A stretch of 38,110 nt of DNA from an uncultured Bacteroidia bacterium (GTDB lineage Bacteria > Bacteroidota > Bacteroidia > Bacteroidales > UBA932), in contig CACZWU010000029.1 in assembly GCA_902784965.1 (NCBI GenBank), forward strand, positions 1 to 38,110, written 5' to 3'. Shown in pieces: positions 297 to 26,659 of this stretch. Every line of letters starts with the position of its first letter. Position 1 is the first letter of the stretch. The notes below the pieces were generated by a model. That model did no database searches and was not told the DNA's origin. It worked only from the letters and a program-made list of their open reading frames with translations. The translations under genes and the position numbers were made by a program.

Positions 297-430
297 GCGC
301 GGGTGGGATATTGCTTCGAGGACCCTAACCACCCTCGGTTGATAGAGGGAGGGGCCCGGAATCGGCGTAGCCGATTTTGGGAAGGAGACGAGCCTTGGCG
401 AGTCGGTCCGAGAAGCAATTCCCAGAGCGC
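297..430 (+). repeat. Structured repeat element, copy 1
   Basis: The sequence folds as a long basal stem closing three hairpins. The basal stem pairs 305-308 and 310-317 with 412-423, and 320-324 with 405-409. T309 is bulged and a symmetric GA/GA internal loop (318-319 with 410-411) interrupts the stem. Inside are a hairpin CCCTC/GAGGG (332-336 with 349-353), a 12-bp hairpin with two G-U pairs and a GTA loop (355-366 with 370-381), and a 7-bp hairpin with a CTTG loop (387-393 with 398-404). GCGC at 297-300 and 427-430 may extend the base. A second copy at 26526-26643 keeps the same layout with different arm sequences. Whether it acts as RNA or DNA is unknown; the GA/GA loop favours folding of the plus strand. 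Confidence 0.6.
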
Positions 431-26319: not shown

Positions 26320-26361
26320 ATCGTCTGTATTGTGTTTTTATTGTTTGTTATCGTTTTTGCG

Positions 26362-26385
26362 TCATTCCGGGCTTGACCCGGAATC
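26362..26385. repeat. Short REP-like palindrome
   Basis: TTCCGGG (26365-26371) pairs with CCCGGAA (26377-26383) over a CTTGA loop, set in TCATTCCGGGCTTGACCCGG context. This short palindrome type is scattered in many bacterial genomes. It lies between kdd and the long hairpin at 26404-26483. Confidence 0.6.
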
Positions 26386-26403
26386 TATTCGTTTTCGTCT
26401 TCT

Positions 26404-26483
26404 GCGGGCTTCTTGGCTCTGGGATCTCGTTCCGCTCGCGAAAAAATGCTCCCGGAACGAGATCCCACCCGCCTGGGAAGCCC
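26404..26483. repeat. Long stem-loop in the kce-kdd gap
   Basis: A perfect 15-bp stem (26420-26434 with 26453-26467) encloses an 18-nt loop containing A6. GGGCTT (26406-26411) pairs with AAGCCC (26478-26483) to add an outer stem. An alternative outer pairing GCGGG/CCCGC (26404-26408 with 26468-26472) is also possible. No T-run follows on either strand, so it is not a simple terminator. It may stabilise or process the operon mRNA, or be a mobile hairpin. Confidence 0.55.
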
Positions 26484-26525: not shown

Positions 26526-26643
26526 GGTATGTGGATCTGAAACACATAGCCACCCTCGGCTTGTAAGAAGGAGGGGCCCGAAATCGGCTTGCCGATTTTG
26601 GGAGGGGTCGCGCCCTGGCGCGACGGTTTCAGAGACACATACC
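26526..26643 (+). repeat. Structured repeat element, copy 2
   Basis: It folds like the copy at 297-430. The basal stem pairs 26526-26533 with 26636-26643 and 26536-26543 with 26626-26633, with the same GA/GA internal loop (26534-26535 with 26634-26635). Inside are CCCTC/GAGGG (26553-26557 with 26571-26575), an 11-bp hairpin with loop CTTG (26577-26587 with 26592-26602), and a perfect 7-bp hairpin with loop CCTG (26607-26613 with 26618-26624). The core sequence near CCACCCTCGG and GGGGCCCG is nearly identical to copy 1, but the basal arms are different and still pair. It lies between kce and kdd on the strand opposite to the operon. Confidence 0.6.
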
Positions 26644-26659
26644 TGGAGCGGCAGGCAAA

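Follow-up and report, generated by a model that had tools for sequence, protein, structure and literature searches.

The closest described systems to the element reported here are the REP and REPIN palindromes with their RAYT (TnpA-REP) transposases. According to the available part of PMC6006769, Bacteroidetes RAYTs of subclass 2.6 have atypical flanking secondary structures with further copies in the genome, and subclass 2.4 is associated with long or double-foot REPs. The available part of PMC3733652 describes RAYTs with long inverted repeats, REPs lying within genes, and CGTC-tagged REPs, which are multi-copy palindromes of 20-40 bp with a conserved tag and stem and, in that part of the source, no dedicated transposase. 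The same text covers MITEs such as ERIC and bcr1, short non-coding mobile elements beside genes whose 15-30 bp terminal inverted repeats are recognised by a transposase. A further comparison is offered by the STAXI motif, a repeated pseudoknot for which the same question of RNA or single-stranded DNA arises (PMC2864571, available part).

The element resembles the REP/REPIN and RAYT systems in several respects. It is a dispersed and mostly intergenic palindrome with some intragenic copies, it forms inverted pairs, its stem has internal mismatches, the main arm types of the genus carry a GT[AG]G foot, and the same genomes also contain RAYTs with palindromes of their own, one insertion site being common to both. 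Unlike in REPs, the stem sequence is not conserved and the apex is a conserved pseudoknotted core. The element is also larger, with uncut covariance-model matches of 85-164 nt, outer arms excluded, compared with 21-65 nt for a REP. None of 88 loci with Y1/RAYT matches, part of a larger set of 150, has the element on both sides, and some carriers have no detected RAYT. The element appears from its sequence to work like a REP, but formal REP membership is not claimed because neither its size nor its position relative to RAYT genes agrees with that class. It shares with the CGTC-tagged REPs the occurrence of many palindromic copies without a dedicated transposase, but those have no core. Like MITEs it is short, non-coding, apparently mobile and found beside genes, but its ends are the variable part: the arms differ between copies, even within one genome, where a MITE would have conserved terminal inverted repeats. 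STAXI differs in being a tandem motif near DNA-handling genes, and the element matched no Rfam family. We found no description of it in open-licence PMC papers on REP/RAYT, MITE hairpins, pseudoknots or Bacteroidales.

Anatomy and distribution of the element

The window, the whole stretch of 38,110 nt that was analysed, is part of a draft genome of 1.87 Mb that is 78% complete. The original prediction described a two-copy folded element at 305-423 and 26526-26643, and a direct sequence check found both copies there. The features of the window are as follows.

297..430, + strand: copy 1, whole element, closed by an outer GCGC helix (297-300 with 427-430)
301-304 and 424-426, + strand: internal loop of copy 1, GGGT opposite AGA
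304-424, + strand: covariance-model match to copy 1
305..324, + strand: 5' stem of copy 1, comprising GGGA (305-308), ATTGCTTC (310-317), a GA loop (318-319) and GGACC (320-324); pairs with 405-423
405..423, + strand: 3' stem of copy 1, comprising GGTCC (405-409), a GA loop (410-411), GAAGCAAT (412-419) and TCCC (420-423)
327-330 with 337-340, + strand: pseudoknot helix of copy 1, AACC with GGTT (direct reading; covariation across copies)
332..349, + strand: hairpin P2 of copy 1, CCCTC (332-336) with GAGGG (345-349) (fold and covariation)
355..381, + strand: hairpin P3 of copy 1, CCC...GGG, the second hairpin of the original prediction (fold and covariation)
387..404, + strand: hairpin P4 of copy 1, the third hairpin of the original prediction (fold and covariation)
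26526..26644, + strand: copy 2 (locus L014), architecture as in copy 1 with other arms
26548-26551 with 26558-26561, + strand: pseudoknot helix of copy 2, AGCC with GGCT (direct reading)
26553-26557 with 26567-26571, + strand: P2 of copy 2, with one mismatch
26406..26483, - strand: companion minor hairpin adjoining copy 2, with the same basal GGGT/AGA loop and a different apex
26360..26386, + strand: short CGTC-tagged palindrome, with a great many occurrences in the related genomes that were searched

The element consists of a core of about 75 nt, made up of an H-type pseudoknot and two hairpins, atop a stem that varies between copies. In copy 1 the pseudoknot reads AACC-A-CCCTC-GGTT-GATA-GAGGG, with a 1-nt spacer; it is followed by GGGGCCC-hairpin-GGG (P3) and then by the further hairpin P4. 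The pseudoknot helix is present in both copies and had been overlooked in the original prediction. Both copies folded better than all 200 dinucleotide shuffles, with folding z-scores of -6.6 (+ strand) and -6.1 (- strand) for copy 1 and of -5.8 and -5.5 for copy 2.

Direct reading agrees with the changes originally noted between the two cores, namely an A-T to T-A swap and pairs in place of G/A mismatches in the third hairpin, and G-U in one copy against A-U in the other in the second. The arms pair in both copies as predicted. Within the core, P2 of copy 2 has a single C-A mismatch (26555 with 26569) in the register of the family; the predicted fold of this hairpin adopts another register. 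The GA/GA internal loop noted in both window copies is indeed there but is not a general feature of the family. Among the unpaired purine loops in a first set of 107 copies, GA/GA occurred 41 times, GGG/GA (part of GGGT/AGA) 35, GGA/GGA 11 and GGA/GAA four times; the corresponding counts in a broader second set of 75 were nine, two, three and two. In copy 1, another repeat just upstream seems to have taken the place of the left outer arm (compare L002). A second dispersed repeat adjoins copy 1 at about 200-296 of the window. Elsewhere in the same genome it interrupts the element twice, leaving two matched halves each time (L009/L022 and L017/L020), and at L016 it comes after the 5' part of the element; it is probably itself mobile. 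The palindrome at 26360-26386 fits, by its sequence, the definition of a CGTC-type REP given in the available part of PMC3733652.

A DNA search of the same genome returned 27 places at E up to 10, a figure that includes fragments and chance matches. Among 41 genomes, matches were found in 13, all of one genus, and there was no match in 16 other genera. A covariance model was then available from 38 of the 45 trimmed copies in a first alignment (L002, L009, L030(+), L035, L038, L039 and L050 were left out). The search proposed with the original prediction, of this genome and related Bacteroidales with such a model, returned many further copies, most with paired arms; those at L009, L015, L017, L019 and L174 are truncated, interrupted or mismatched. 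Within the genus there were 446 matches (table sum) in 33 of 40 genomes, with 19 in the window's own genome and a maximum of 47. "Two-copy" thus describes the window, and a two-copy family was rejected on these counts. A matching arm lay within 260 nt for 156 of 227 distinct 5' halves under an exact-match rule; inspected by eye, the remaining 71 are apparently either compact elements that the rule overlooked or elements that are cut or truncated.

Relatives outside the genus are patchy across the Bacteroidales. In an order-wide sample the model matched five of 295 genomes: the window's own, one from another genus of the family (five copies), and one from each of three other families (11, three and three copies). 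An exact pattern of the core matched at least 120 stretches of a genome collection and no viral contig. Among the 80 matches listed, 78 were from Bacteroidia, with rumen, omasum, reticulum and horse faeces as frequent sources; the covariance model matched 71 of the 80 loci. The other two, in Phycicoccus and Azospirillum, had no model match and look like chance. Distant relatives are under-sampled in all of these counts, because copies were found through similarity to copy 1, the model or one exact core pattern. At the gathering score, Rfam had no family for the element in the window, the sole match being a tRNA elsewhere. With E up to 1 at eight loci, only MIR1223 appeared; it scored 41.6 bits, where the gathering score is 77, and lay on L185, a near-perfect hairpin.

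The statistical test of covariation that had been proposed gave a score of 0.516, compared with 0.151 in shuffles, for 104 distinct copies in a structure-fitted alignment. In the same alignment 91% of the cells were paired, and double-changed cells numbered 667, compared with 205 in shuffles and 71-136 for the slid controls. Without fitting, an alignment of 38 copies scored 0.387 against 0.144. Helices P2 and P3 covary among the 104 distinct copies, and P4 is the weakest helix at 72%. The pseudoknot was parsed in 169 of 183 copies, giving 77 distinct contexts (copy 2 of the window is among the 14 unparsed). Its helix had a mean of 4.3 consecutive pairs, compared with 2.5 (maximum 2.9) in 2000 shuffles; at least four consecutive pairs were present in 71 of the 77 contexts, and none or one in two. 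By hand count, 17 fully Watson-Crick four-base combinations occur. A conserved folded single strand is well supported by this strong covariation, pseudoknot included, and to this extent the reading of the paired changes as selection for structure is supported.

Insertion sites and genomic context

At all five orthologous sites read at sequence level, the element was polymorphic, being occupied in some species and empty in others. The flanks are too diverged between species to fix exact boundaries or target duplications. Copy 2 is present in the window's own genome and absent from six of six relatives that have both flanks; G003 and G054 have only the minor hairpin at this site, with quite different arms. 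At site G000:C9:21752 the element is found in G000, G052 and G003 and is missing in G023 and G042, and in G003 the element, together with the minor hairpin, lies the other way round. At site G000:C9:26190 the element is missing in G023, G042 and G052, and in G003 there is a RAYT gene with its own palindromes, next to the doublet of element and minor hairpin around an inverted gene. The two sites on G023:C35 are filled in some relatives and empty in others, one of them with other arms in G003. Some insertions are common to several species (three for L006, L049 and L050). One further site has an unbroken match through a doublet in G003 and G054 in the match table, and this insertion is probably shared.

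Three conserved genes contain a copy of the element in frame, in one or the other sense, and family matches flank the insert on either side.

L073, gene sense: class I fumarate hydratase, element at residues 255-291
L079, opposite sense: ABC-F ATPase, element at residues 355-390
L039, opposite sense: TilS, element at residues 266-310, the C-terminal match being above the cut-off in NCBIfam and just under it in Pfam

The other long frames through copies (24 in all, L035, L038 and L076 among them) were ambiguous or apparently spurious and were not counted. The frame at L038 runs from a GreA-type domain through the element to a NUDIX domain, which could reflect either insertion in frame or the joining of two genes across the element.

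The copies are mainly intergenic, as are REPs. After frames overlapping the element were set aside as assumed non-genes, 71 of the 107 copies of the first set passed the filters; 32 lay between convergent and five between divergent genes, and of those between co-directional genes 19 had the same sense as the genes and 15 the opposite sense. These 71 showed no sense bias to neighbouring genes (p 0.61). Most copies are close to stop codons: the median distance from the model match was 35.5 nt to a stop codon (98 flanks) and 50 nt to a start codon (44). A cis-acting 3' UTR or promoter RNA was rejected because orientation to genes is unbiased.

Eleven distinct close neighbours, 24-126 bp apart, were found; ten are inverted, all with their 5' ends facing, and one is direct, an arrangement of the REPIN/BIME inverted-pair type. 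The minor hairpin, with its GGGT/AGA base and other apex, adjoins several copies head to head. It belongs to a family with a T-rich apex seen at 26406-26483 of the window and at L003, L004, L007, L014, L019, L023, L025, L029, L058, L086, L087 and L228.

Candidate enzymes for mobilisation

Divergent RAYTs escaped detection by Pfam models of Y1 transposases, and a profile built for the genus was used instead. RAYT-type Y1 transposases of about 300-340 amino acids were found in 29 of the 40 genus genomes, with 150 profile matches (table sum). The element is present in 28 of the 29 RAYT-positive genomes and in five of the 11 RAYT-negative ones (Fisher p 7e-4). Copy numbers of RAYT and element have a rank correlation of 0.62, or 0.47 (p 0.0025) after genome size, in a comparison that ignores kinship although the two counts share a phylogeny.

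A guide tetranucleotide GT[AG]G is known from REPs (PMC6006769 and PMC8266576, available parts). Of 97 distinct arm pairs in the first set, 52 have it at the 5' foot and two have it mirrored at the 3' foot. The foot marks only the main arm types of the genus, because the broader second set gives 15 against 10 of 75. Many RAYT genes with printed flanks carry palindromes of their own. Among the RAYT loci L101-L168 and L300-L319, many of these palindromes are long and several have GTGG and CCAC at their two feet, and at L145 a tandem array of near-identical hairpins lies downstream of the RAYT gene. The element model matched three of the 88 RAYT loci (L115, L300 and L301), at L300 about 150 bp upstream.

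Mobilisation by a RAYT is, on sequence grounds, the likeliest single explanation. We place just over half of our confidence in a non-autonomous element of the REP type that is active in the form of a folded single strand and is mobilised in trans by a probable RAYT, with template switching helping to re-pair its stems. In the single-stranded state, such as on the lagging strand, the long chromosomal palindrome would fold into a hairpin with the pseudoknotted three-hairpin core as its cap. An enzyme acting in trans, most likely a Y1/HUH transposase of the RAYT superfamily, would recognise the folded strand and move or copy the element. Insertion would occur chiefly in intergenic sites downstream of genes and occasionally in frame within a gene. 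The stem would be required to pair and be nearly free in sequence. Template switching between the arms could restore pairing after mutation and would account for the fast paired changes, and conversion could exchange cores between elements.

More tentatively, the element may represent a class of chromosomal elements defined by a genetically selected pseudoknot of single-stranded DNA; the enzyme would read the knotted apex, and the ends could be any long pairing stem, remade in each copy by arm conversion. If the enzyme does read the apex, recognition by the tip rather than by the ends would be unusual for a mobile element. The RAYT-rich genus is a ready system for the co-evolution of palindromic repeats and transposases.

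The mobile DNA could instead be moved by something other than a RAYT, either another enzyme of single strands or hairpins or host replication and repair alone. This would explain the carriers outside the genus, G217 (11 copies), G165, G247 and G067, in which the genus profile found no RAYT at E 1e-10, the 17 copies in five RAYT-negative genomes of the genus, and the absence, among the 88 RAYT loci examined, of any flanked on both sides by the element; the CGTC-type REPs are a precedent for palindromes described without a dedicated transposase (PMC3733652, available part). We regard it as rather unlikely, given that RAYT and element are associated within the genus and that an insertion site is common to the element and a RAYT gene with palindromes. 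No gene-carrying autonomous form was seen in a non-systematic gene search of 444 loci. A reverse-transcriptase-driven retroelement was rejected, as PF00078 occurs in 12 of the 40 genus genomes, is absent from the window's own genome and shows no association with element copy number in the 40 genomes.

Paired changes in stems and core

It is customary to treat covariation as proof that an RNA is functional. In this element it is strong, pseudoknot included, in what appears to be mobile DNA with few wobble pairs in its stems, which makes the element a natural test case for distinguishing RNA selection, single-stranded DNA selection and template switching. The original prediction allowed the structure to be either an RNA or a protein-recognised hairpin of DNA, and the evidence favours a DNA hairpin of a mobile element over RNA.

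If the element were a selected RNA, the + strand would be transcribed and act as a structured molecule (a regulator, a processing signal or a ribozyme), and the copies would have spread in some unrelated way. An H-type pseudoknot with a 1-nt spacer that covaries over 77 contexts, the covariation of P2 and P3, and the better folding of the + strand as RNA would all be expected of such a molecule. One P3 position is frequently G-T (42 of 104 and 32 of 79 distinct copies), as could be the case if G-U were tolerated there. In the stems, hairpin alignments made without a G-U reward and without fitting gave 9 G-T, 6 A-C and 15 other isolated mismatches against 3649 Watson-Crick pairs in the first set, and 22, 9 and 23 against 2619 in the second. 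The excess of G-T over A-C, 31 to 15, is mild (p 0.026). Model-fitted alignments gave 104 to 32 and 50 to 16 in the stem, but their scoring favours G-U and their register is partly wrong there. Wobble pairs are otherwise rare, however, with G-U in one of 308 pseudoknot cells and few in the stems. The lack of orientation bias to genes, the presence and absence at orthologous sites, the in-frame copies inside genes on either strand, the identical core found on unrelated stems (below) and the absence of an Rfam match at the gathering score also argue against RNA, and we consider this explanation improbable.

The stems differ greatly in length of pairing. Perfect runs extend to at most 36 bp, with a median of 12 in the first set and 16 in the second, and runs of 20 bp are reached in 17 copies of the first set and 23 of the second. 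In genome G006, L072 and L171 have an identical stretch of 76 nt spanning the core and unrelated stems. In 118 pairs of copies whose cores are at least 95% identical, there were 220 double Watson-Crick changes, 113 single-sided changes and 15 other double changes, with paired changes running over up to six adjacent pairs; these pairs of copies often share history, and the events are non-independent. At L040, the left side of the basal GGGT/AGA loop has been turned into the complement of the right. These patterns are the expected footprint of template switching and of conversion between cores, and template switching has been described for RNA stems (PMC8794818, available part).

Stem covariation alone is not proof of selection, because template switching or conversion yields the same footprint. 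Slow selection on an RNA would not by itself be expected to leave the changes seen in the stems; conversion at the DNA level contributes, as the multi-base paired changes between recent copies and the identical core on unrelated stems indicate. A stronger argument for selection is that two crossing helices are jointly kept in a core common to several families. It is highly improbable that the fold is functionless, a set of long palindromes that spread once and have been kept paired only by template switching during replication, since this published mechanism accounts for the double changes and for L040 but leaves unexplained the joint upkeep of the pseudoknot and P2, the conservation of the core across Bacteroidales families and the recurrent unpaired purine loops.

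In L366, L334 and L402, P3 contains an extra inserted stretch of tens of nucleotides that is partly palindromic.
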